Under the pieces are notes generated by a model. The model searched no databases and was not told the DNA's origin. It saw only the letters and a list, made by a program, of their open reading frames with translations. The position numbers were made by a program, and so were the translations under genes. Below, piece after piece: positions 9,431 to 35,400 of a stretch of 64,000 bases of DNA. Position 1 is the stretch's first letter. Each line of letters opens with the position of its first letter. Source of the stretch: Leuconostoc mesenteroides subsp. mesenteroides (GTDB taxonomy: Bacteria > Bacillota > Bacilli > Lactobacillales > Lactobacillaceae); contig CP046062.1 of assembly GCA_009676745.1 (NCBI GenBank), forward strand, positions 62,001-126,000, in the 5' to 3' direction.

Positions 9431-10744
9431 TTAATCAGTAATTTGTAACATAATCCATTCAATAATGGCATTTACCGTACTCGCTCTACGTTCTATGGTT
9501 GAGATGCTTAATTGTAATTTTTCAGTAACCATTTCCTCAATGATTTTCTGTTTATCTAATTTCTTATTTATCCGAATTCTTAATTGAATGAGTCGATTAA
9601 ATAAAGAATAAGACACAATTTCTCTAGCTAATAATACATTACGCTTACCCACATTTTGATTAATAATGTGTTGACCTCGTACTGTTAGTTCAAATAATGT
9701 CTCTTTTTGAAAGGCTAAATCAAAATACATTAAAATATTCTTAACATAATATTCTGCCTGTCTCGGATCAAAACCGAATGCATCCGCGATTTCCTGACGT
9801 TCCATTTTTTTATTTTTCAACAACATCATCAATTCAATGACTTTCGCCATATCGTTAGCTTGGGGGAAAAGTTGTCCCTTGGTTGGCTTTGTGACGACAC
9901 TTTGAGCATAAATTAGTAAGGATTCTTTGGTTTCTGTTTCATCTCGATCAATAAATTGAAACTCAAAACGTCGAATTTCATTAATACTATTATAATGATA
10001 AATATTATCAAATTGAAAAACTCGAATACGCGCATATTGACTGGCCGCATTAATCTCAAAAAAAACCGGAACTACTGGCTTTCTGGTAATTTGAAAGTCA
10101 GATAATAATTTGCGATAAGGAAAATAAAGTTGTCGAACCAGAAAGTTAGTCTCTTTAACCTGCTTTGCTTCAATGATATAGACTGCTTTAGGTGATTCTA
10201 AAACTGTATCAATTTCGATTTGAGGATTTTCAAGTTGTAAATTAAAAACTCTGTCACCTTGGTGATTTGTAATATTAAATCGCCATTTTCCACCGCCCAT
10301 TCGGCCATTTAGCGTACGAATAAAATCTGAATCGTCAAAGGAAGAGTCAAATGCGTTAGCTGCCAATCCTGCACTAATCCAGCTATTTTCGTTCCATTTA
10401 TCCGAATTTCCCAACAAAGACTCTAAGTTAGGAATTGGATATTTTTCAATTTTTGTTGGATTTTTTTCAGATAGATCGGCATACTCATTAAAATGCCCAA
10501 CCAAATACTTTTTACGTGATATTGGCAAAATATTTAGTTCATTTTCTAAAAATACGTCTGGTAAATCTTCTTTTTTATCAAATTTTGATAAGTTTCGAAA
10601 ATCTGGTCCCGACATTTTTTTTGAAATCCGATTGACTTCCATGGCCGTGATTTCGAAAAATCCATTTGATTTAAGTAGTTTCATATCGTTAGCGCGCATG
10701 CTCAAAACTTTTTGCCAAACTATATTTTTTGCACCATTAACCAT
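9431..10744 (-). CDS. Type II restriction endonuclease (PD-(D/E)xK-like)
   Basis: This protein of about 437 residues is encoded directly downstream of an adenine methyltransferase. The middle part contains NPQIEID followed by VYIIEAKQVK, which fits the D/E-x-K nuclease core. The C-terminal third reads like a winged helix (RQEIADAFGFDPRQAEYYV). I chose ATG 10744, which has GAGG 9-10 bp upstream, over a TTG two codons earlier. This ATG overlaps the methyltransferase stop by 8 bp, so translation is probably coupled. The family is not identified by name and the recognition site is unknown. The role is inferred from context plus the nuclease-like motif. Confidence 0.72.
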   Translation of the reverse strand: MVNGAKNIVWQKVLSMRANDMKLLKSNGFFEITAMEVNRISKKMSGPDFRNLSKFDKKEDLPDVFLENELNILPISRKKYLVGHFNEYADLSEKNPTKIEKYPIPNLESLLGNSDKWNENSWISAGLAANAFDSSFDDSDFIRTLNGRMGGGKWRFNITNHQGDRVFNLQLENPQIEIDTVLESPKAVYIIEAKQVKETNFLVRQLYFPYRKLLSDFQITRKPVVPVFFEINAASQYARIRVFQFDNIYHYNSINEIRRFEFQFIDRDETETKESLLIYAQSVVTKPTKGQLFPQANDMAKVIELMMLLKNKKMERQEIADAFGFDPRQAEYYVKNILMYFDLAFQKETLFELTVRGQHIINQNVGKRNVLLAREIVSYSLFNRLIQLRIRINKKLDKQKIIEEMVTEKLQLSISTIERRASTVNAIIEWIMLQITD

Positions 10745-11830
10745 GCACAATTACCTCAGCCACACGTTTACGTGAATTAGCATGTGCACCAACAGATCGG
10801 TTTACACTAACATGTTCAATCTTCACTCCTTTAATATCTCCATAAAGCTCATTAATTAAAGGCACATCAGAATTAGACAACAACACATGAACACCATTTT
10901 CATGTAGATGTTTGAACAAATCGCGCAATCTAACTTGCTGATCATAACCAAATGATGAACTATAGCTCGTAAAACTACTTGTCTCAGATATTGGAATATA
11001 GGGTGGATCAAAATATACAAAATCACCGGATTTTGCTTCTGAAACAGCTTGTTCAAAATCACCATTTAAAATTTTAATTTGTGCTGTATTTAAATATTTT
11101 GAAGAGGAAAAAATATTTGTTTTATCCGCAACGTTTGGATTTTTATAACTACCAAATGGCACATTATTTTGGCCCTTTTTATTAACGCGCCATAGCCCAT
11201 TAAAACCTGCCTTATTCATATATACGAAACGCGCTGCACGCTCAACAAATGTCATATTTTCTAAACGGCCATCACGGTCGGCTGACCGTAAATCTAAATA
11301 TAATTCTTTACTATGACTAGCTTGATATTTTCGTAACAACTCCAACATTTTTTCAGGTTGATCACGTACGGTTAGCCATGTTATGAATAGTTCTAAATTA
11401 AAATCGTTAATAACTGCACATTCCGGTTTTAGGTTAAGTAAAAAGGCACCGCCACCTAAAAATGGCTCAAAGTATGTCCCAAAATTTTTCGGAACATACT
11501 TAGCCAATTCAGGTAATAGTTGCCTTTTTCCACCGACCCATTTAATAAACGGTCGTAACTCAACTGAATGATTGCTTGTTGCTTGTTGCTTGTTGCTTGT
11601 TGCTTGTTGCTTGTTGCTTGTTGCTTGTTGCTTGTTGCTTGTTGCTTGTTGCTTGTTGCTTGTTGCTTGTTGCTTGTTGCTTGTTGCTTGTTGCTTGTTG
11701 CTTGTTGCTTGTTGCTTGTTGCTTGTTGCTTGTTGCTTGTTGCTTGTTGCTTGTTGCTTGTTGCTTGTTGCTTGTTGCTTGTTGCTTGTTGCTTGTTGCT
11801 TGTTGCTTGTTGCTTGTTGCTGCTAATCAT
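10737..11830 (-). CDS. Dam-like adenine-N6 DNA methyltransferase, phase-variable, out of frame here
   Basis: The body carries alpha-class N6-adenine methyltransferase motifs: PFIKWVGGKRQLLPEL and FEPFLGGGAF (SAM binding), then FDPPYIP (catalytic DPPY). The first motif is encoded upstream of 11507, so the TTG at 11507 cannot be the true start. Between the motif and the only well-placed ATG (11830, AAAGGA 8 bp upstream) lie about 35.7 copies of a 7-bp repeat. With this copy number the ATG leads to a 124-residue out-of-frame product ending at 11456. The methyltransferase frame is closed by TAG at 11825-11823. One more or two fewer repeats would give a 366- or 359-residue in-frame enzyme with an SNKQQAT-repeat tail. 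The core is close to DpnII/Dam methylases in length. Confidence 0.85.
11572..11821. repeat. 7-bp tandem repeat (TTGCTTG)n, about 35.7 copies
   Basis: A perfect 250-bp microsatellite of period 7 runs without interruption between the start codon and body of the methyltransferase gene. Because 7 is not a multiple of 3, each gain or loss of one unit changes frame. The minus strand contains no stop in any frame and always encodes the cycle S-N-K-Q-Q-A-T. Tandem repeats of this kind change length by slipped-strand mispairing. The exact copy number in the assembly should be treated with caution. Confidence 0.97.
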
Positions 11831-11854
11831 AGTCGTGATCCTTTATTTTGTCAA
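11826..11854 (-). promoter_or_regulatory. Near-consensus promoter overlapping the methyltransferase start codon
   Basis: On the minus strand TTGACA (11854-11849), a 17-bp spacer and TATGAT (11831-11826) form a near-perfect sigma-A promoter. The -10 hexamer contains the ATG at 11830. A Shine-Dalgarno-like AAAGGA (11844-11839) with 8-bp spacing lies between the two hexamers. Transcription from this promoter would begin inside the repeat and exclude the ATG. Either the hexamers are coincidental and a promoter lies further upstream, or two transcript types exist. Confidence 0.5.
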
Positions 11855-11902
11855 GTATTGAGATCTTAATTGTTGATCAGTTTTGATTTTGGATCAAGTT
11901 GA

Positions 11903-13621
11903 TTACCAAATAGCATTCATATTTCTAACAAATTTTGCTGTTCTTTTCTCGATTTGATTGGCGTTCCACTCAGTGATAACTTGTGAAATTAATTTATTAT
12001 TTATAATTTTAGATTGACTTAATTTTTTGAATTTTAACTGTAATGACCATTCTTCATCCCAGGTTAAACTTTTTTCAAGCAGTGTAAAATTACCAAATCT
12101 ATTAACAAAATCTCTATCATTACCAAGTTGTTCATCATTAGCTATTCTGATTAAACGATACTTTGGATTTTTATTTCCCTTAAACAAATCATATGAAGAT
12201 ATGGTTTCTCCATCTTCTACTGAAAGTAGTTCGGATAATAAAAACACATGCCCTTGTTTCGTATTACGGGACTGATTAATTGTCCATTTATCTCTATTCC
12301 AAAACGGTAAAGTAAGCTGAGCTCGTTCTTTTTTCTCAATTTCACCTAACTCAGTTGTTATATCTTCAACAGTTGTTGCTATTCCAGTTTTGATATTTCT
12401 AGCAACACGCACTAGGTCCTTCTCTAAATCGTTGGCAACTTCGCCTAATATAAATATATTAGTAGCATAAACACTCAATATTTTATGCAAAACTTTTCTA
12501 ATATCTGCTTCCTCAAATGCTCGATCGTACAATGCCAATATAATTGGATGAAAAGTTTTGACCAATAATGAAGCAGTGTCTACTAAATTTGCTAATTCTT
12601 GATCTTTAAAATATGACTTCAATCCTTTTACTAACCCTTGATATATATCCACATATTTTGCTAATTCGTCCAGTATTCTCCTAGCGTCAGCTGAATTTTG
12701 TAGGTTTTTACTTTTTCTCATTGTTCGGAAGAGCTTATCTTGATTTACTAATCCCGAATTAAACGCCCAATAGGATCGAATATATCTTGAAGTATCGTTA
12801 GATTTACGATCTAGCGTATTGAACACTTTTTCCCATTTTTTATTTGCATTATCAGCATCATCAGCTAAAAAGCCAAGTAATAAATTCTTTAATAAGTCTG
12901 CTTCTTCCAGGCTTTTTCCACGTGCATTTAGTGTTTCAAAAATGACAAATCCGTCTTTTGTAGACGATGTGTTAATTAAAATCACCTTAAATCTTTTAGT
13001 AAATACTTGAACTAGATGTTCTAACCTTTTTAATTGTTCAGGAACACCTAAATTTGTCACTCCATCTTTAGATATGTATTCCTTCACATGTTTTTGAAAG
13101 TACAGAAATGCATTGTTTAAGTTTTTTTCAGTTTGGTTACTACTATCTGATGTATTTCCTTTTAATAATAATGTAGTAAAAAAAGAAGCAACGTCATTTT
13201 CTGAGGGCAAAGTTAAGATAGGTGTCGTAAGATCACTTGCTAATAAGTAATTTTCCTGAATATCATCAACCCTGCGACGAGCATTATACTTCTCATCATC
13301 GCTAAGCTGAGAACTATACTTTTCATCACTAATAAAATGGTTAGCAACATTTCGTATTGATGCCAATAGTAGTGTTGACGTAATTAAACGTTGTTGTCCG
13401 TCAATCACCTCATAACCATTTTCGGATGTATTTGTCACAATTTGACCAAAAAAATGTTCATCTGAGTCATCTTTTAATACTTCCTCTAAATCATCCCACA
13501 AATCTTCAAGTTGAACGCTTTGCCACGAGTATTCACGTTGATATGCTGGAACGTGGTAACGAGCCTCATTTTCTGAAAGTAAAGAATGAATTGATTTTGT
13601 CTCTGGATTTGCAATTGCCAT
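11903..13621 (-). CDS. GmrSD-type DUF262 / DUF1524 protein (type IV restriction-like)
   Basis: This protein of about 572 residues has a DUF262 (GmrS-like) N-terminus with VPAYQREYSW, then FFGQIV and YEVIDGQQRL, the ParB-like nucleotide-binding DGQQR signature. The C-terminus has the DUF1524-type segment FVNRFGNFTLLEKSLTWD. The canonical HIxP catalytic histidine motif of DUF1524 is not visible, so the nuclease part may be divergent or inactive. ATG 13621 is preferred to a TTG five codons upstream. Such proteins cut modified phage DNA. The placement next to a restriction-modification pair supports defence, though the exact target is not predictable. Confidence 0.8.
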   Translation of the reverse strand: MAIANPETKSIHSLLSENEARYHVPAYQREYSWQSVQLEDLWDDLEEVLKDDSDEHFFGQIVTNTSENGYEVIDGQQRLITSTLLLASIRNVANHFISDEKYSSQLSDDEKYNARRRVDDIQENYLLASDLTTPILTLPSENDVASFFTTLLLKGNTSDSSNQTEKNLNNAFLYFQKHVKEYISKDGVTNLGVPEQLKRLEHLVQVFTKRFKVILINTSSTKDGFVIFETLNARGKSLEEADLLKNLLLGFLADDADNANKKWEKVFNTLDRKSNDTSRYIRSYWAFNSGLVNQDKLFRTMRKSKNLQNSADARRILDELAKYVDIYQGLVKGLKSYFKDQELANLVDTASLLVKTFHPIILALYDRAFEEADIRKVLHKILSVYATNIFILGEVANDLEKDLVRVARNIKTGIATTVEDITTELGEIEKKERAQLTLPFWNRDKWTINQSRNTKQGHVFLLSELLSVEDGETISSYDLFKGNKNPKYRLIRIANDEQLGNDRDFVNRFGNFTLLEKSLTWDEEWSLQLKFKKLSQSKIINNKLISQVITEWNANQIEKRTAKFVRNMNAIW

Positions 13622-13694
13622 ACTATTTTCTTCCAATCATATTATTAACTCAATTAGATCACAAAAAAAGGTCATAGCATATTACATTTAGATC

Positions 13695-20035: not shown

Positions 20036-21202
20036 TTATCTCGTAATCCACAGTTTATTGTTATCCGTATGGAAAAAAGGTTTTGACTTTTTAGTTGGAT
20101 AAAAGGTCATATTCTTATCTTTTAGCTTTTTTACGCCAGCAATAACCCCACTATTTTCGTTAGTTGTAGCTTCTTTAACATAGTAGAGTCTACCTGGAAT
20201 ATCATCAAATGTAACAAGCCCTTCATCATTCGAACGACGGATTAATGGTTCTCCATCTCTTTTTAAAGCAATTTTTTTGTTCTTAGAGAACAATTGAAAG
20301 GCGACAGATGAAACGGGATTACCATCAATATCTAAACGATAAAATGATAAATCGAACTTCTTCTTAGCTAACTTGATACGTACGATGCGTTTATACAAGC
20401 AAATAAATTGCACTACGATTAATAAAATGATACTAATAATAATAAGCGCTTGATGGATATTGTTAAACGTATCAGCCTTTTCAATATTTTTGGTCATGTT
20501 TTTCTTATAAGGGATACGGTATCCTGTCACCAGTAAACGATGAGAATTGACCATGTAAGGTGTACAGGTTATCAAGGTTACCAAATCTTTATCAGGTTCA
20601 ACTTGCAGTCCTTGGTAATTTTCAGGTTTAACAACTTCAATTTTGAAAACTTTATAAGCTAATTTTTTATGAAATACAGTTAACACAAAAGTATCATTTT
20701 TCTTAACATGATTTAAGTTCGTAAATAACATTCGTGAAGCTAAGCCACGGTGCGCCGAAATAACACTATGCGTTCCTTTTCCACCCAAAGGGAAAGATGT
20801 CCCTTGTAAGACAGTTGCACCATAATTAAGTGTTTCTTCATTAGTTGTGTCAAAAAGTGGAATATGCACATTAATTTTAGAAATACTAATTGTTCCAATT
20901 AAATGCTTCTTCAATACCCCATTTTCGTTGTCAGTAGCACCAGAAAACGGGTCGCTACCAAGTTGAATACCTTCTTTCCTTAACTGTGCATTTTTCTGTT
21001 GCATACGTGCTTCTTTTGCTGATATATCTTTAGTCGTTTCTTTTTGAATGGTTTTAATTCGTTGCTGGTCAATAAAGTGATTCAGCGCACCGACGTAAAA
21101 GGGATACAATGCTACTAAAAAGCCTATAAGAAAAATAATATTTAAAAATATACTTTGCTTATTCTTTTTTTTACTAGTTCGCTTAGTCATTTGTTTCGCC
21201 AC
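20036..21202 (-). CDS. Class C pilus sortase with C-terminal SpaA-like domain (second sortase)
   Basis: This 388-residue transpeptidase has an N-terminal helix (residues about 18-38). Its lid segment contains LGSDPFSG, the DPF typical of class C. The catalytic set is SAHRGLASRMLF (His), LITCTPYMVNSHR (Cys near residue 212) and LLVTGYR (Arg). A second hydrophobic helix near residues 248-268 is followed by a basic stretch. About 105 more residues then read like a Cna_B/SpaA beta-domain (YRLDIDGNPVSSVAFQLF ... GLVTFDDIPGRLYYVKEATT). That tail is unusual. It overlaps the upstream sortase by 20 bp and is the last gene of the pilus operon. Confidence 0.9.
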   Translation of the reverse strand: MAKQMTKRTSKKKNKQSIFLNIIFLIGFLVALYPFYVGALNHFIDQQRIKTIQKETTKDISAKEARMQQKNAQLRKEGIQLGSDPFSGATDNENGVLKKHLIGTISISKINVHIPLFDTTNEETLNYGATVLQGTSFPLGGKGTHSVISAHRGLASRMLFTNLNHVKKNDTFVLTVFHKKLAYKVFKIEVVKPENYQGLQVEPDKDLVTLITCTPYMVNSHRLLVTGYRIPYKKNMTKNIEKADTFNNIHQALIIISIILLIVVQFICLYKRIVRIKLAKKKFDLSFYRLDIDGNPVSSVAFQLFSKNKKIALKRDGEPLIRRSNDEGLVTFDDIPGRLYYVKEATTNENSGVIAGVKKLKDKNMTFYPTKKSKPFFHTDNNKLWITR

Positions 21203-22370
21203 CTTCTGTGTCTATTTGGTAACCATTTTTCACTACTTTTCTGATATAGAATTTTTTATCTTTTAAATGTTTAACTATTGCTTTAAAAGGTTTGATATTC
21301 ATGTTTGAATTCATCGGAATTATTTTATACTTGCCACCACTAATTTCACCAAATGATACATAACCTCTTGAGTCACTCGTAGACTCACATAATTCACCTT
21401 GATCATTTAATATTTTTTTACCAAAAAAATCGACTACAGTGAACTTGTATCCAGAAATAGCGTGACCATTGTTATAAACAAAAAATGATAACTGATAATT
21501 CCTTTTATGTGACAATAATTCAATAACCTCACGTCTGATGATATAAAAGATCAACGCTATAAAAACCAGGATCAGCGTCGTCAAACAAAGCAAATATTTC
21601 CCCTGATAGGATACTGCTTTTTTTTCTTGTTGATCAAACGAACTTCTATCCAAAGGTACTCTTTTCCCAGTCACCAATAATCGATGTGTATTGACCATAT
21701 AGGGTGTACACGTGACCAAAGTTGCCAAATCTTGATTAGTTTGTATTGTGATATCACTTAAATCTGTTGGTAAAACTACTTTGATTCGAATAACTTGATA
21801 AGCTAAACGTTTCCCATATATTTTCAAAAAAAACTTATCGCCTTTTTTTAATTCGTGCAGATGAGTAAATAATTCTTGATTAGGCAAACCACTATGCCCC
21901 ATCAAAACGGTGTGCGTATTTTTTCCGCCAACAGGATAAGAGCTACCTGGTAGTAATGTGATTCCTTTATATAAAAGACTGTCAGTCGTTGTATCAAACA
22001 CCGGTAAACTCAGAGATATTTTAGGAATGAATATGCTGCCTAACGAGTGCTTTTGATAGTACCCTCTACTCTCCTTGGGTACATTGTTCAATGTTTGCCC
22101 TAAGATATTTTTGACGGGTGATATCCCAAGTTGTTGATTTTCTACTGACTTTTGATTGTTCTTTTTGATTAATTTTTCGAGTTTCTTGGCACTGGCTTTC
22201 TGATTGCTTTGATTTAGTTGATTCGCAACATTTAATTCTTTTTGCGCGACATAGTTATTCACGCCATTAGCAATAAAAGGGTACATGAATACCAAAAAAC
22301 CAATGAAAAACATTAATGCAATGAATAGTTTCAGAAATATATTAGTGTTGTTTTGTTTTTGTTCTGCCAT
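21183..22370 (-). CDS. Class C pilus sortase with C-terminal SpaA-like domain (first sortase)
   Basis: This 395-residue paralogue of the next gene has an N-terminal membrane helix, MGHSGLPNQELFTHL (catalytic His), LVTCTPYMVNTHRLL (Cys near residue 220) and VTGKRVP (Arg). A second membrane helix lies near residues 255-278. The lid region reads GISPVKNILGQ, without the DPF/DPW aromatic anchor. After the second helix comes a domain of about 110 residues with the SpaA-like pattern SFFVYNNGHAISGYKFTVV ... GYVSFGEISGGKYKI. AAAGGA precedes the start by about 10 bp. It polymerises or anchors pilins with its neighbour. Confidence 0.9.
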   Translation of the reverse strand: MAEQKQNNTNIFLKLFIALMFFIGFLVFMYPFIANGVNNYVAQKELNVANQLNQSNQKASAKKLEKLIKKNNQKSVENQQLGISPVKNILGQTLNNVPKESRGYYQKHSLGSIFIPKISLSLPVFDTTTDSLLYKGITLLPGSSYPVGGKNTHTVLMGHSGLPNQELFTHLHELKKGDKFFLKIYGKRLAYQVIRIKVVLPTDLSDITIQTNQDLATLVTCTPYMVNTHRLLVTGKRVPLDRSSFDQQEKKAVSYQGKYLLCLTTLILVFIALIFYIIRREVIELLSHKRNYQLSFFVYNNGHAISGYKFTVVDFFGKKILNDQGELCESTSDSRGYVSFGEISGGKYKIIPMNSNMNIKPFKAIVKHLKDKKFYIRKVVKNGYQIDTEGGETND

Positions 22371-22456
22371 CGGTTTGTTATCCTTTGAAACTATGGCTCA
22401 TACTAGCAATGAAGACATTTATTTCAAAGAATGATGAACATAGTATTTATTTTTAT

Positions 22457-22492
22457 AAAAAAAGTGCTCACCACGAACATGGTTTGCACTTT
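22457..22492 (-). terminator. Terminator-like hairpin between the backbone pilin and sortase genes
   Basis: On the minus strand AAAGTGCAAACCA pairs with TGGTGAGCACTTT around a 6-base loop, and TTTTTT follows. It lies 16 bp past the backbone pilin stop and upstream of the sortases. Partial termination here would make much more pilin than sortase. Confidence 0.7.
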
Positions 22493-22507
22493 AGTTTTCA
22501 AATATGA

Positions 22508-24034
22508 TTAGATATTTTGGTTCTTCTTATTACGCTTATTCCAAACATATGCGCCACTCATCAAAAGTGCACCTGCAATCAAGAACAAGTAGATACCAGA
22601 ACCACCAGTTGATGGTAAGATACCCTTCTTAATGTTTGTCACAGTGATTGTTTGATTATCAGCATAGCTTCCTTTAGTAACTGTAAACTTAACAGGAGCT
22701 GTCAAAAGTGCATAGCCTGTTGGCGCCTTTGTTTCAACAAGTGCATAGCTTTGACCATCAGACAACTTGCTTGAATATTCAAGACCCTTTAATTCAACTG
22801 ATCCTTGATTATTTGATGTATATGTTGTCGCTGAGTCATTATTTGATGCCCATGTGTATGAACCATCAGTTGCTTGCGTCGCGTAGGCAACTTTGTCACC
22901 ATTAGCATTTAACTTAACCAACTGGAACTCTGCACCAGCAAGCTTTGCAGCACTTTGCTTGTCTTGTTTAACAAATTTCACACCACCAGTGTAAATTTCA
23001 GGTCCTTGAACCGGTGTAGTAGTAACATCTGTTCCGTTACCAATTTTTAACGTAGCCGTGTTGTTCAATGCTTTGTCAGGAACGGCAGCATTAGTCAAGG
23101 TAGCATCATAAGTAACTGTTAACTTTTTACCAGCAGCAGCCTTAACAGCAGCTGAATTTGTCATAAATTCTATTGTAAAGCCTTTACCATTTTGGGCAGT
23201 TGCATTAGTTGCCGAAACTGTATAGTCAGTTCCTTCAGTTAATCCTGCAACCTTTACTGTAGTAGCATCATCATCAATACCTAAGTTAGGAGTATCAACT
23301 ACATTAAATGTATCTTTATCCGCAATGTTCCATGGTACTGCTATTTGTAATTGATAACCAAACTTTTGACCATAAGTGGCATTATAAACCTTTGATCCAT
23401 CAGGCAATGTCACCATCAAATCTTTTTTACTTTCGGCGTTTAAATCTTTTGTAATAGCATCAGCTTGTTCGTTCTTGGGATAAACATGAACATCAGAATT
23501 AATTTCTGAGTCTGACCCTGACTTATAAACGGGTAAAGCTAACACAATTGGCGCAGCTTTTTGTGTAACATTCGTTGGTGAATTTGTTTCAACAAACAAG
23601 TAAACCTTGTCTTTATCGCCGTCCTTAGACTTCAAATTTGAAAAAGTTACTGTGCCATCGGCTCCAGCTGTTACACCTTCTGCAACTTTTGTGGCGTAAC
23701 TTGGTGCAGCATCAGCGGCATCAGATTGAACCTCTTGGGATGCTTTTTCAGCAGTGTCACCATTAGAACGTAAATTCAAGTAATGGTCAGTTACATCATA
23801 AGCTGTAAAAGTAACACCTGCTAATGGCGTTCCACCAAAATTATTATCTACTTCACCTGTATTGGTCTTACTATCTGGTACTTTCCCTTCATCAAAGACC
23901 CTTTTATGCAATGTAACATTAACACTATCTGTTGTATCCGCAGATACACTAGTAACACCAAACAAGGCTGATACTAAAAGAGGAAGTACGAGTAAAATCG
24001 CATGAGCCATTTGTGACCATGACTTACTTTTCAT
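22508..24034 (-). CDS. Major (backbone) pilin subunit, LPSTG-anchored
   Basis: This 508-residue secreted protein has an N-terminal signal peptide ending near SVSADTT. VHVYPKNEQ near residue 184 is the pilin motif whose lysine is joined to the next subunit. It also has two or more Cna_B/SpaA-type isopeptide domains, an E-box ALVETKAPTGYALL, and a C-terminal sorting signal ILPSTGG (473 on) with a hydrophobic helix and KRNKK tail. AAAGGAG with good spacing supports the start. It overlaps the minor pilin by 11 bp. The YPKN motif marks it as the shaft subunit. Confidence 0.93.
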   Translation of the reverse strand: MKSKSWSQMAHAILLVLPLLVSALFGVTSVSADTTDSVNVTLHKRVFDEGKVPDSKTNTGEVDNNFGGTPLAGVTFTAYDVTDHYLNLRSNGDTAEKASQEVQSDAADAAPSYATKVAEGVTAGADGTVTFSNLKSKDGDKDKVYLFVETNSPTNVTQKAAPIVLALPVYKSGSDSEINSDVHVYPKNEQADAITKDLNAESKKDLMVTLPDGSKVYNATYGQKFGYQLQIAVPWNIADKDTFNVVDTPNLGIDDDATTVKVAGLTEGTDYTVSATNATAQNGKGFTIEFMTNSAAVKAAAGKKLTVTYDATLTNAAVPDKALNNTATLKIGNGTDVTTTPVQGPEIYTGGVKFVKQDKQSAAKLAGAEFQLVKLNANGDKVAYATQATDGSYTWASNNDSATTYTSNNQGSVELKGLEYSSKLSDGQSYALVETKAPTGYALLTAPVKFTVTKGSYADNQTITVTNIKKGILPSTGGSGIYLFLIAGALLMSGAYVWNKRNKKNQNI

Positions 24035-29462: not shown

Positions 29463-32400
29463 TTATTTCAATTTATTTGTTTTTTTAGCTTTTTTTGATA
29501 CTAATATTGCTAGAATAGTAACTACTGCTGTCAGCCCCTCTACATAATTGCTTTGTCTAGCATTGGTTCTTGGTAGCTTAGCACTATTATTAATCTGTTG
29601 ATTTATCAAATTCGTATTTTTGATTAATGATGATGAATTACTATCACTGATATTTGTTGAATCACTTAGTGACGTTGATGTACTATCACTCGCACTTGTT
29701 GAGCCGCTTAGTGATGCTGAGGCACTATCACTCATACTCGTTGAAGCACTTAGTGATGCTGAGGTACTGTCACTCGCACTTGTTGAAGCACTTAGTAAAG
29801 TTGAGGCACTATCACTCACACTCGTTGAACCACTTAATGATGTTGAGGCACTATCACTCATACTCGTTGAATCACTTAGTGAGGTTGACGTACTGTCACT
29901 CACACTCGTTGAAGCACTTAATGATGCTGAGGCACTATCACTCATACTTGTTGAAGCACTTAGTGAAGTTGAGGCACTATCACTCACACTCGTTGAACCA
30001 CTTAATGATGTTGAGGCACTATCACTCATACTCGTTGAATCACTTAGTGAGGTTGACGTACTGTCACTCACACTCGTTGAAGCACTTAATGATGCTGAGG
30101 CACTATCACTCATACTTGTTGAAGCACTTAGTGATGCTGAGGTACTGTCACTCACACTTGTTGAACCACTTAGTGAGGTTGAGGCACTGTCACTCACACT
30201 CGTTGAAGCACTTAATGATGCTGAGGCACTGTCACTCACACTTGTTGAGCCACTTAATGATGCTGAGGCACTATCACTCACACTTGTTGAACCACTTAAT
30301 GACGTTGACGTACTATCACTCACACTCGTTGAGCCACTTAATGATGCTGAGGCACTATCGCTCACACTCGTTGAACCACTTAGTGACGTTGAGGTACTGT
30401 CACTCACACTTGTTGAACCACTTAGTGAAGTTGACGTACTGTCACTCACACTCGTTGAAGCACTTAGTGATGCTGAGGCACTATCACTCATACTTGTTGA
30501 AGCACTTAATGACGTTGACGCACTGTCACTCACACTTGTTGAAGCACTTAATGACGTTGACGCACTGTCACTCACACTTGTTGAGCCACTTAGTGAAGTT
30601 GAGGCACTATCGCTCACACTCATTGAGCCACTTAGTGAGGTTGAGATACTATCGCTCACACCTGTGGAATCACTTAGTGAGGTTGAGGTACTATCGCTCA
30701 CACTCATTGAAGCACTTAGTGACGTTGATGCACTATCACTCATACTTGTTGAACCACTTAGTGAGGTTGATGTACTGTCACTCACACTCGTTGAACCACT
30801 TAGTGATGCTGAGGCACTATCACTCACACTTGTTGAAGCACTTAATGACATTGACGTACTATCACTCATACTTGTTGAAGCACTTAATGACATTGACGTA
30901 CTATCACTCACACTCGTTGAACCACTTAGTGAAGTTGATGTACTGTCACTCACACTTGTTGAAGCACTTAGTGATGCTGAGGCACTATCACTCATACTTG
31001 TTGAACCACTTAATGATGTTGAGGCACTATCGCTCATACTTGTTGAAGCACTTAGTGAAGTTGATGTACTGTCACTCACACTTGTTGAAGCACTTAATGA
31101 TGTTGACGTACTGTCACTCATACTTGTTGAGGTACTTAGTGAAGTTGATGCACTATCACTCATACTTGTTGAACCACTTAGTGAGGTTGATGCACTGTCC
31201 CTCACACTCGTTGAAGCACTTAGTGAAGTTGATGTACTGTCACTCACACTTGTTGAAGCACTTAATGACATTGACGTACTGTCACTCATACTTGTTGAGG
31301 TACTTAGTGAAGTTGATGCACTATCACTCATACTTGTTGAACCACTTAGTGAGGTTGATGCACTGTCCCTCACACTCGTTGAAGCACTTAGTGATGCTGA
31401 GGCACTATCACTCATACTTGTTGAGCCACTTAGTGATGTTGAGGCACTATCGCTCATACTTGTTGAAGCACTTAGTGACGTTGATGTACTATCACTCACA
31501 CTCGTTGAGCCACTTAATGACGTTGACGTACTATCGCTCACACTTGTGGAAGCACTTAGTGATGCTGAGGCACTATCGCTCACACTTGTTGAACCACTTA
31601 GTGATGTTGAGGTACTGTCACTCACACTCGTTGAAGCACTTAGTGATGCTGAGGCACTATCACTCACACTCGTTGAACCACTTAGTGATGTTGAGGTACT
31701 GTCACTCACACTTGTTGAGCCACTTAGTGAGGTTGAGGCACTATCGCTCACACTCGTTGAACCACTTAGTGATGCTGAGGCACTATCACTCATACTTGTT
31801 GAAGCACTTAATGACGTTGAGGTACTGTCACTCACACTCGTTGAACCACTTAGTGATGCTGAGGCACTATCGCTCGCACTCGTTGAGCCACTTAATGACG
31901 TCGATGTACTATCGCTCACACTCGTTGAACCACTTAGTGATGCTGAGGCACTATCACTCATACTTGTTGAAGCACTTAATGACGTTGAGGTACTGTCACT
32001 CACACTCGTTGAACCACTTAGTGATGCTGAGGCACTATCGCTCGCACTCGTTGAGCCACTTAATGACGTCGATGTACTATCGCTCACACTCGTTGAACCA
32101 CTTAGTGATGCTGAGGCACTATCACTCATACTTGTTGAAGCACTTAGTGATGTTGAGGTACTGTCACTCACACTCGTTGAAGCACTTAGTGAAGTTGAGG
32201 TACTATCGCTCACACTTGTTGAGCCACTTAGTGAAGTTGAGGCACTATCGCTCACACTCGTTGAAGCACTTAGTGATGTTGAGGTACTATCGCTCACACT
32301 TGTTGAGCCACTTAGTGAAGTTGAGGCACTATCGCTCACACTCGTTGAAGCACTTAGTGATGTTGAGGTACTGTCACTCACACTCGTTGAACCACTTAGT

Positions 32401-35400
32401 GATGCTGAGGCACTATCGCTCGCACTCGTTGAGCCACTTAATGACGTCGATGTACTATCGCTCACACTCGTTGAACCACTTAGTGATGCTGAGGCACTAT
32501 CACTCATACTTGTTGAAGCACTTAGTGATGTTGAGGTACTGTCACTCACACTCGTTGAAGCACTTAGTGAAGTTGAGGTACTATCGCTCACACTTGTTGA
32601 GCCACTTAGTGAAGTTGAGGCACTATCGCTCACACTCGTTGAAGCACTTAATGACGTCGATGTACTGTCACTCACACTTGTTGAAGCACTTAATGAAGTT
32701 GAGGCACTGTCACTCGTACTTGTTGAGCCACTTAGTGACGTTGATGTACTGTCACTCACACTCGTTGAAGCACTTAGTGAAGTTGATGTACTATCGCTCA
32801 CACTTGTTGAAGCACTTAATGATGTTGAGGCACTGTCACTCACACTTGTTGAGCCACTTAGTGAAGTTGAGGCACTATCGCTCACACTCGTTGAACCACT
32901 TAATGACGTTGACGTACTATCACTCGCACTTGTTGAGCCACTTAGTGAAGTTGAGGTACTGTCACTCACACTCGTTGAACCACTTAGTGATGCTGAGCTA
33001 CTTAATGAGGTTGAGCTACTATCACTCACACTCGTTGAAGTACTTAGTGATGCTGAGGCACTATCACTCATACTTGTTGAAGCACTTAATGACGTTGATG
33101 TACTGTCACTCACACTCGTTGAACCACTTAGTGATGCTGAGGCACTATCGCTCACACTTGTTGAAGCACTTAATGATGTTGATGTACTGTCACTCACACT
33201 CGTTGAAGCACTTAGTGATGCTGAGCTACTTAATGAGGTTGAGCTACTATCACTCACACTCGTTGAAGTACTTAGTGATGCTGAGGCACTATCACTCATA
33301 CTTGTTGAAGCACTTAATGACGTTGATGTACTGTCACTCACACTCGTTGAACCACTTAGTGATGCTGAGGCACTATCGCTCACACTTGTTGAAGCACTTA
33401 ATGATGTTGATGTACTGTCACTCACACTCGTTGAACCACTTAGTGATGCTGAGGCACTATCACTCACACTCGTTGAACCACTTAGTGAAGTTGAGGTACT
33501 GTCACTCACACTCGTTGAACCACTTAGTGATGCTGAGACACTATCGCTCACACTTGTTGAAGCACTTAATGAAGTTGAGGTACTGTCACTCACACTCGTT
33601 GAACCACTTAGTGATGCTGAGGCACTATCACTCACACTCGTTGAACCACTTAGTGAGGTTGAGGCACTATCGCTCACACTCGTTGAACCACTTAGTGATG
33701 CTGAGGCACTATCACTCATACTTGTTGAAGCACTTAATGACGTTGATGTACTGTCACTCACACTCGTTGAGCCACTTAGTGATGCTGAGGCACTATCGCT
33801 CGCACTCGTTGAGCCACTTAATGACGTCGATGTACTATCGCTCACACTCGTTGAACCACTTAGTGATGCTGAGGCACTATCGCTCACACCTGTGGAATCA
33901 CTTAGTGATGTTGAGGTACTATCGCTCACACTCATTGAATCACTTAGTGAGGTTGAGGTACTTGCAGATTCTGATACAGGATCAGGTGCATAGTTAACTC
34001 TATACAACTGTGGATCATTATCTGTTCTAGCATCCCCATTGGTAGTAGTATCAAACTTTCTGAATCCAGCCAAAGCCATTGCCAAAGATGCATAAGTATT
34101 GCCATCTGCCCCTAATACAGTATACGTAAATCCTTGTCGTACCAAATCTGAATCACTTACACCAAATGATATTTCTCCATTTGAGTAACCATCACTGCTA
34201 TATTTTGTAGCCGATGCACTGGAAGAACTAGTAGGGATTTGTTCATATGCTTCATTAGTAACAGGATTATTAGTTGGTTGGCTGGTAGAAATAACTACTG
34301 CTTGCTGATAGTCAGGTGTCAGGCTAATGCTTAGTGCTTGCTTATCTGAATCAGTTGTACTTGCGCCATTTTTGCTGGCATCGAATGTGAATTTTTGCTG
34401 AGCTGACTCAGGAGCCAAATGATAACCACTCTCCGTCACCCCTGAATCAGATAATAGCTCTCCTAAGGTTTTAGTTTGGTTTGAAAAACCATTTACAGTT
34501 ACTGTAATGGAGGAAGATCCATTAATAGACGTGCTATCTGTATTTTGAACTGTTACGTCCACTTGTTGGACTGATGCAGTAACAAATATGGTTATTAAAT
34601 CATTATTGGTTGAAACAAGGCTGCTAGTTGGTTGGACTTTACTTGTGTCATAGGTATAGCCAGCGGGAACGTTCGTTACAGTGTAATAACGATTAGTCCA
34701 GTCAATAGTATTGCCGTAATTAGCTGTAGGGAGACCATTGCCATACTCGTCATTTGCAGTCGTTACACTACTTGTGTCAAGAATATTTCCATTTTGATCA
34801 ACATATTGATATTGAACTGTTTCTGATAACCCATATACATATATTTTGTACGTATATGTATCACCAGAAATTGGCACAATAGCATAGGTCGCTTGACCAT
34901 AACGATCACCATCATCATTGCTACTTGTCGAATCTCCACCTGATTGCGCATCCGAAACGGCACCCGGATATACTTGATTGGTTAATGCCCATTTATAGTT
35001 TGTTGGCATATGTGTTGAAGCCCAATCGCTTGTAGCAAGGTTAATCGTTTGACCTATGTTGTACTTAGTTTTATCTGAAACATCAAACGGTACTGTATTA
35101 ATAACATTACCATTTCTATCAACATATTCAATATTAATCTTGCCATTATCAATTGCTGTAGTTTGTAATTCACGAGTTCTAAAACCAATAATGGACGATG
35201 TAGTAGAATTACCTGATACATCTGTTAATTTAGTTGTTCCATTAGAGTAGTTTAAACTAACAAATGTTGCATTGTCATCACCCGTTGGTTTTGATGTACT
35301 AGTATTTGGATTTGACCAAGTTTTTATACTGGAATTATTCATAGTAATTGAACCAGTGCCAGTAAAAATACCAAGCCACGTATTACTTGGATTTCCTGAT

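Follow-up and report, generated by a model that had tools for sequence, protein, structure and literature searches.

The DpnII system of Streptococcus has the gene order DpnM-DpnA-DpnII, in which DpnM methylates GATC; Type IIG enzymes join both activities and, in Helicobacter, switch on homopolymers. Phase-variable Type IIG enzymes are the subject of reports on Helicobacter (PMC3936762) and Campylobacter (PMC4889913), and they resemble the locus described below in that a Type II-class enzyme is switched by a repeat, whereas loci of the present type consist of separate genes and carry a 7-bp or a 4-bp array. Simple sequence repeats (SSRs) also switch the Type III mod and Type I hsd genes that are known as phasevarions (surveys cited in PMC7394358). 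There, as appears to be the case here, whether an adenine methyltransferase is ON or OFF depends on the number of simple repeats within its coding region; in contrast, the present enzyme is a Type II, DpnM-like methyltransferase with its own nuclease and occurs in lactic acid bacteria. Within the cited portion of PMC7394358, the survey figures cover Type I and Type III systems only, and L. mesenteroides figures there with inverting Type I hsdS loci, which represent a different mechanism. For LlaDII, AhdI and CfrBI, control of the methyltransferase gene by promoter methylation is outlined in PMC12707154; the leader of our locus would similarly place the presumed sites of the methyltransferase on its own putative promoter, although in this case the parallel is drawn from conserved GATC sites only and would be combined with a repeat switch. 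The pil1 attenuator of Streptococcus gallolyticus, which has been studied experimentally (PMC3894217), contains a leader-peptide repeat ORF and is comparable in that a repeat array lies in an ORF behind a ribosome-binding site with output set by the frame; unlike in pil1, the array in the window forms part of the enzyme gene, and only three further loci (L138-L140, see below) resemble pil1. A Weissella cibaria genome paper mentions DpnII (PMC8215347). Among the titles and abstract openings of the open-access papers listed, none describes a Type II system of Leuconostoc or Weissella that is switched by a repeat. Repeat-switched methyltransferases are already known, and the variant that is predicted here is a Type II operon with a separate nuclease in lactic acid bacteria.

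The window, i.e. the whole stretch of 64,000 nucleotides of Leuconostoc mesenteroides subsp. mesenteroides DNA that was analysed, contains the following features, given from upstream to downstream with the evidence for each in brackets:

11903..13636, minus strand: GmrSD_N/DUF262 gene, PADLOC HEC-06, directly upstream (family search, PADLOC)
11869..11897, minus strand: proposed promoter TTGATC-N17-AACAAT (inferred; spacing conserved by eye; absent from the promoter-scan list)
11837..11895, minus strand: four GATC sites, at 11892-11895, 11875-11878, 11862-11865 and 11837-11840 (conserved in leaders)
11826..11854, minus strand: rival promoter-like site TTGACA-N17-TATGAT, overlapping the ATG (promoter scan, 11/12 matches)
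11839..11844, minus strand: ribosome-binding site AAAGGA (read from the sequence)
11456..11830, minus strand: OFF-frame product of 124 residues, from ATG 11830 to the stop at 11456 (ORF reading)
11823..11825, minus strand: TAG in the methyltransferase frame, just ahead of the array (frame reading)
11572..11821, minus strand: perfect (GCAACAA)35.7 array inside the 5' coding region (repeat scan)
10737..11571, minus strand: DpnM/Dam-family adenine methyltransferase body, intact but not in the frame of the ATG (PF02086, TIGR00571, PDB 2dpm)
9431..10744, minus strand: restriction endonuclease gene, 437 aa from ATG 10744, DUF6996/6997/7226 (family search, PADLOC REase_II)

The original prediction was that of a phase-variable methyltransferase, apparently OFF in this genome, in which a perfect 7-bp repeat of 250 bp separates the ATG at 11830 and its AAAGGA from the catalytic body. 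A tandem-repeat scan of the window located precisely this array (period 7, GCAACAA, 250 bp, 35.7 copies, 100% match), and three consecutive GCAACAA units are unique to it within its own genome, as 33 of 33 overlapping matches fall inside. The reading frames were likewise as predicted: beyond the TAG at 11825 the methyltransferase frame is open across the array to its stop at 10737, it contains no ATG, GTG or TTG ahead of the IKWVGGKR motif (the first such codon being TTG 11507), and the frame of the ATG comes to a dead end at 11456 after 124 residues. The distance from ATG 11830 to the methyltransferase stop is 1094 nt, and hand arithmetic confirmed that the gain of one unit (+7) or the loss of two (-14) gives an enzyme of 366 or 359 residues, respectively. 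A unit that is not divisible by three is thus situated between start and body, and both frames occur among relatives, as in an SSR phase-variable gene. A chance origin of the array was rejected, given that 35 consecutive perfect 7-mers were judged to be far beyond chance and that GCAACAA recurs on the same gene in sister species.

The catalytic body, which comprises 278 codons without an internal stop, was assigned to the D12 class by family search (PF02086, E 2.3e-60) and also matched the Dam family TIGR00571, while its nearest solved relative, and top PDB match, is DpnM (PDB 2dpm, E 5.5e-93). D12-class methyltransferases are marked by FxGG and DPPY motifs, and FLGGGAF and DPPY are visible in P0001. 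GATC is the presumed target of the enzyme because of its similarity to DpnM and the DpnII partners of its relatives. The names of the closest database proteins point to Leuconostoc mesenteroides/suionicum, with P0002 at 95% identity to the methyltransferase; all matches in the plasmid (2484 records) and phage (1127) collections, which may omit close neighbours of the genome of the window, were below 60% identity, so that no strain-level plasmid or phage copies were found. Comparison of the window with two ON copies gave dN/dS ratios of 0.11 to 0.15 (0.11 between the OFF copy of the window and the ON copy of G016), which are rough values with synonymous sites near saturation, and by this measure the body is under purifying selection. 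The possibility of a useless pseudogene was rejected for the window, as the body is open and its lineage is under purifying selection.

The ATG of the following gene lies inside the last eight bases of the methyltransferase gene, producing an 8-bp overlap with the stop. Its product was identified as a restriction enzyme (PADLOC REase_II, E 1.6e-42), is 94% identical to P0122, one of the closest database proteins, whose names again point to Leuconostoc mesenteroides/suionicum, and contains residues E177, D179, E192 and K194, which we take to represent the PD-(D/E)XK nuclease pattern and which are invariant in 50 aligned sequences, window included. The methyltransferase is therefore adjoined by a predicted nuclease with an active site that is intact by sequence, as in a Type II system, and a GATC specificity of this nuclease is assumed from its partner. 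The window nuclease belongs to the DUF6996/6997/7226 type and not to the DpnII family (PF04556), which is present in relatives only: the partner is DpnII in G017, G008, G006 and G200, and three sister methyltransferase copies of 74-75% identity are paired with it. The DUF6996/6997/7226-type nuclease accompanies 7 of 11 array loci, window included, being recognised in five by Pfam and in two (G381 and G356) by sequence likeness only. The 11 array loci that retain the partner gene were searched for the nuclease ATG up to 15 nt on either side of where the methyltransferase ends, and in all 11 it was found at -11 to +6 nt from the stop; outside this count are G005 and G004, which have lost the partner, and G397 and G398, in which the nuclease ORF begins 6 nt past the stop. 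The array loci share their methyltransferase family, and in the four genomes named above also the DpnII partner, with the Streptococcus system, from which all 11 differ in having the nuclease directly next, without a DpnA-like gene. In the array-less homologs G024, G014 and G036 an extra gene separates methyltransferase and nuclease, and in G036, the only one scanned, this is a DpnA-like PF01555 enzyme.

RNA folding as a means of hiding the nuclease start showed no consistent effect over the 11 array loci: the unpaired probability at this start fell short of the shuffle mean by 0.07 or more in four loci (window included), exceeded it by 0.10 or more in two and stayed within 0.05 of it in the other five, and G006 alone folds unusually strongly (z -4.6). 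A buried start was consequently dropped as proof of coupling, and the argument for translational coupling is drawn from the gene overlap. The original prediction had regarded the methyltransferase as the switched unit; the reading as a switch is supported, with the qualification that the switched unit is probably the whole Type II operon. That prediction was sound as to array and frames but did not mention the restriction gene that overlaps the methyltransferase, the GATC sites clustered in the leader, or how widely the switch occurs among relatives.

Homologs of the methyltransferase were found in 46 genomes at E <= 1e-60, and 30 loci were examined (the window, L010-L013 and L035-L059), 16 weaker ones being left aside. 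The sequence (GCAACAA)4 is present in 7 of 397 genomes of the family, six of which are Leuconostoc (G000, the window's genome, G004, G005, G008, G016 and G017) and carry it on the methyltransferase gene, which is broken in G005 and G004. Similarly, (CCAA)6 occurs in 7 of 28 genomes of the genus of G381 (Weissella), all with the array on the methyltransferase gene, and G244 has a second CCAA array elsewhere in its genome. G200, from another genus, contains a GCAA array running off the contig edge, while P0002 displays a different heptapeptide repeat at the array position, the protein implying a different 7-bp unit. GCAACAA copy numbers on the same gene are 14.1, 20.6 and 35.7, and from these arrays it follows that the position is kept even though copy number, and even the unit, changes. 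On a tree the Leuconostoc and Weissella array genes group together (support 0.59), with G200 and P0018 as separate cases, and the Weissella genome G395 has lost the gene, its leader being left as a scar.

An intact body in combination with a complete array was found at eight loci, five of which are in frame, or ON (G016, G017, G381, which includes imperfect units, G244 and W. confusa DSM 20196), and three out of frame, or OFF (the window, G356 and the single-contig genome G173). Left out of this count are G005 and G004, where the gene is broken, G398, whose body contains a nonsense codon, and G397, which has an N gap, as well as G006, G008 and G200, whose contigs start within the array or at its edge. 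From such comparisons we infer that the array slips and that switching occurs in real time; the predicted phase switch, with its OFF state here, is supported by the copy-number differences, by the ON and OFF relatives, by the replacement of the unit in Weissella and by purifying selection on the body. In a search for proteins with such repeats, P0201, P0212 and P0250, among the best 120 of 1499 matches, bear similar peptide repeats without a methyltransferase domain, so the peptide repeat alone is not diagnostic. Several array-less Lactobacillaceae methyltransferases among L040-L056 have an in-frame ATG approximately 200 nt ahead of the body, and some database relatives carry a PF13443 domain, from which it appears that an N-terminal extension occupies the array position in such homologs.

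The four GATC sites of the leader form the tightest such cluster in the window, and four were reached by 19 of 20,000 shuffles of this leader. In an alignment of 11 leaders (without G397, G398 and the G395 scar) the sites are kept in 10, 11, 11 and 11, respectively, G016 being the leader that lacks one. Across eight of these leaders, 14 of 16 GATC columns are invariant as compared to 23 of 52 other ungapped columns; this count left out G006 and DSM 20196, which are near-copies of included rows, and G173, the most divergent leader, whose omission raises column conservation. Three or more GATC sites within 62 bp, a threshold chosen after the leaders were seen, are present in all 10 array loci that have a leader but in none of the 20 array-less homologs (33 rows including L135-L137, with L012, L013 and L054 excluded for incomplete upstreams). 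This association does not amount to many independent events, since the array loci belong mostly to one clade. The leader motif GATCNACAATTAAGATC matches 11 of 397 genomes, ten matches being methyltransferase leaders (scar included) and the eleventh, in G257, lying within an unrelated coding region and taken as chance; the motif misses G173, whose leader differs.

The first three GATC sites would be situated on TTGATC-N17-AACAAT, the proposed promoter, and the last one next to the ribosome-binding site, an arrangement that suggests self-regulation by methylation. The strongest promoter-scan match is not this sequence but TTGACA-N17-TATGAT, which, owing to its overlap with the ATG, would give transcripts without that codon. 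An attenuator-like hairpin at 11466-11451 was weak, and as the terminator count of the region is at chance level it was not used in the interpretation. Relative to expectation, GATC is the rarest of the 16 palindromic 4-mers in the window (0.67 with both repeat regions masked, 0.61 unmasked), a shortage that is consistent with long exposure to GATC restriction.

The array and its frames, the order and overlap of the genes, their conservation and the family assignments are observed; beyond these, we propose that slipped-strand events in the array turn a two-gene Type II restriction-modification operon with GATC specificity ON and OFF, a reading that we consider to have a probability of roughly 0.75. 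The gain or loss of 7-bp units would alter the frame in which the methyltransferase stands relative to ATG 11830. When the two are in frame, the cell would methylate GATC and, through translational coupling at the 8-bp overlap, produce the nuclease; when they are not, ribosomes would stop early and neither enzyme would be made in quantity, leaving the cell unprotected but uncut. A lone GATC nuclease would cut the chromosome, so that an intact nuclease gene in the OFF state calls for an explanation. The GATC sites on the promoter and ribosome-binding region would probably let the methyltransferase tune its own promoter, such that a change from OFF to ON would elicit a burst of expression on fresh unmethylated DNA followed by a lower steady level, and by analogy with LlaDII, AhdI and CfrBI this leader may act as a second safeguard beside coupled translation.

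An alternative that we regard as unlikely is that the methyltransferase alone varies, for the purpose of a phasevarion, and that the nuclease is separately expressed or too weak to harm. The GAGG-like site ahead of the nuclease ATG and a start that is not consistently buried in RNA structure would suit separate expression, but the nuclease gene is intact while the methyltransferase is OFF, and an active GATC nuclease would cut unmethylated chromosomes; moreover, at each of the 11 array loci examined the nuclease gene overlaps or directly adjoins the methyltransferase gene. Protection from elsewhere is also not apparent, as a search for the D12 family in this genome found one other such methyltransferase, which adjoins an RE_AlwI gene; AlwI is specific for GGATC, and this second enzyme should therefore cover GGATC only, for which reason a compensating GATC methyltransferase of the D12 family was rejected. 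The pair in question (L073, G000:C2:27000-39000), a D12 methyltransferase with an RE_AlwI nuclease, is located on another contig of 39.6 kb, which is probably a plasmid.

It is less probable still that the locus is permanently dead in the window strain or that the assembled copy number is wrong. Broken relatives do exist (G005, G004, G398 and the deletion scar of G395) and arrays are hard to assemble, as seen from the contigs of G006, G008 and G200 that begin in or at the array and from the N-gapped G397; these observations are countered by the 278-codon body without a stop, by the dN/dS of 0.11 and by the single-contig genome G173, which is OFF too. We consider it very improbable that the enzyme is always made, be it from an unusual start just before IKWVGG or through ribosomal frameshifting: the MKWVGGKR at which database entries P0005 and P0013 start, at the I of IKWVGG, is presumably the response of a gene finder to an out-of-frame upstream region, and in 11 of 11 aligned leaders an ATG stands behind a conserved GGATC/ribosome-binding stretch ahead of the array.

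Repeat arrays were also encountered outside the methyltransferase gene. The seventh (GCAACAA)4 genome, G373, contains two loci (L138 and L139, on G373:C27 and C28), neither of them being this methyltransferase gene, in which 7-bp GCAACAA arrays lie in short leader ORFs before terminator-like hairpins; one frame stops before the hairpin and that of the other copy inside it, and a Band-7 protein gene is among the genes downstream in L138. At L140 (G244:C24:31000-37500) a (CCAA)13 leader ORF precedes a strong terminator-like hairpin and, downstream, a second Type II pair (PF01555 methyltransferase and PADLOC REase_II). One of its three frames passes the hairpin and stops directly before the methyltransferase ATG, while the other two, the present one included, stop before the hairpin. 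The GmrSD_N/DUF262 gene upstream of the window locus is probably a separate defence gene, and in G356 a gene that is similar to it by eye lies downstream of the system. Elsewhere in the window, a 4.3-kb array (29624-33962) of about 102 copies of a 42-bp unit is probably situated in a surface protein gene, and nearby ORFs (20036-24034) are sortase-like and pilin-like by eye.

We tentatively raise the possibility, while considering it rather doubtful, that portable SSR leader cassettes serve as general switches of defence operons in Leuconostoc and Weissella, either fused to the enzyme (with GATC-methylation feedback and without killing) or as attenuators, the nuclease being exchangeable while switch and leader stay. 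How a Type II system whose nuclease is separate can switch without killing its own cell is an old problem, which the window locus poses in testable form: its array, its overlap and its four GATC sites lead to clear predictions, and the short motif that is the presumed target can be assayed by routine long-read methylation calling. In industrial Leuconostoc and Weissella, the barriers that restriction sets to phages and to transformation may come and go at random, and one culture could therefore hold both permissive and resistant cells.
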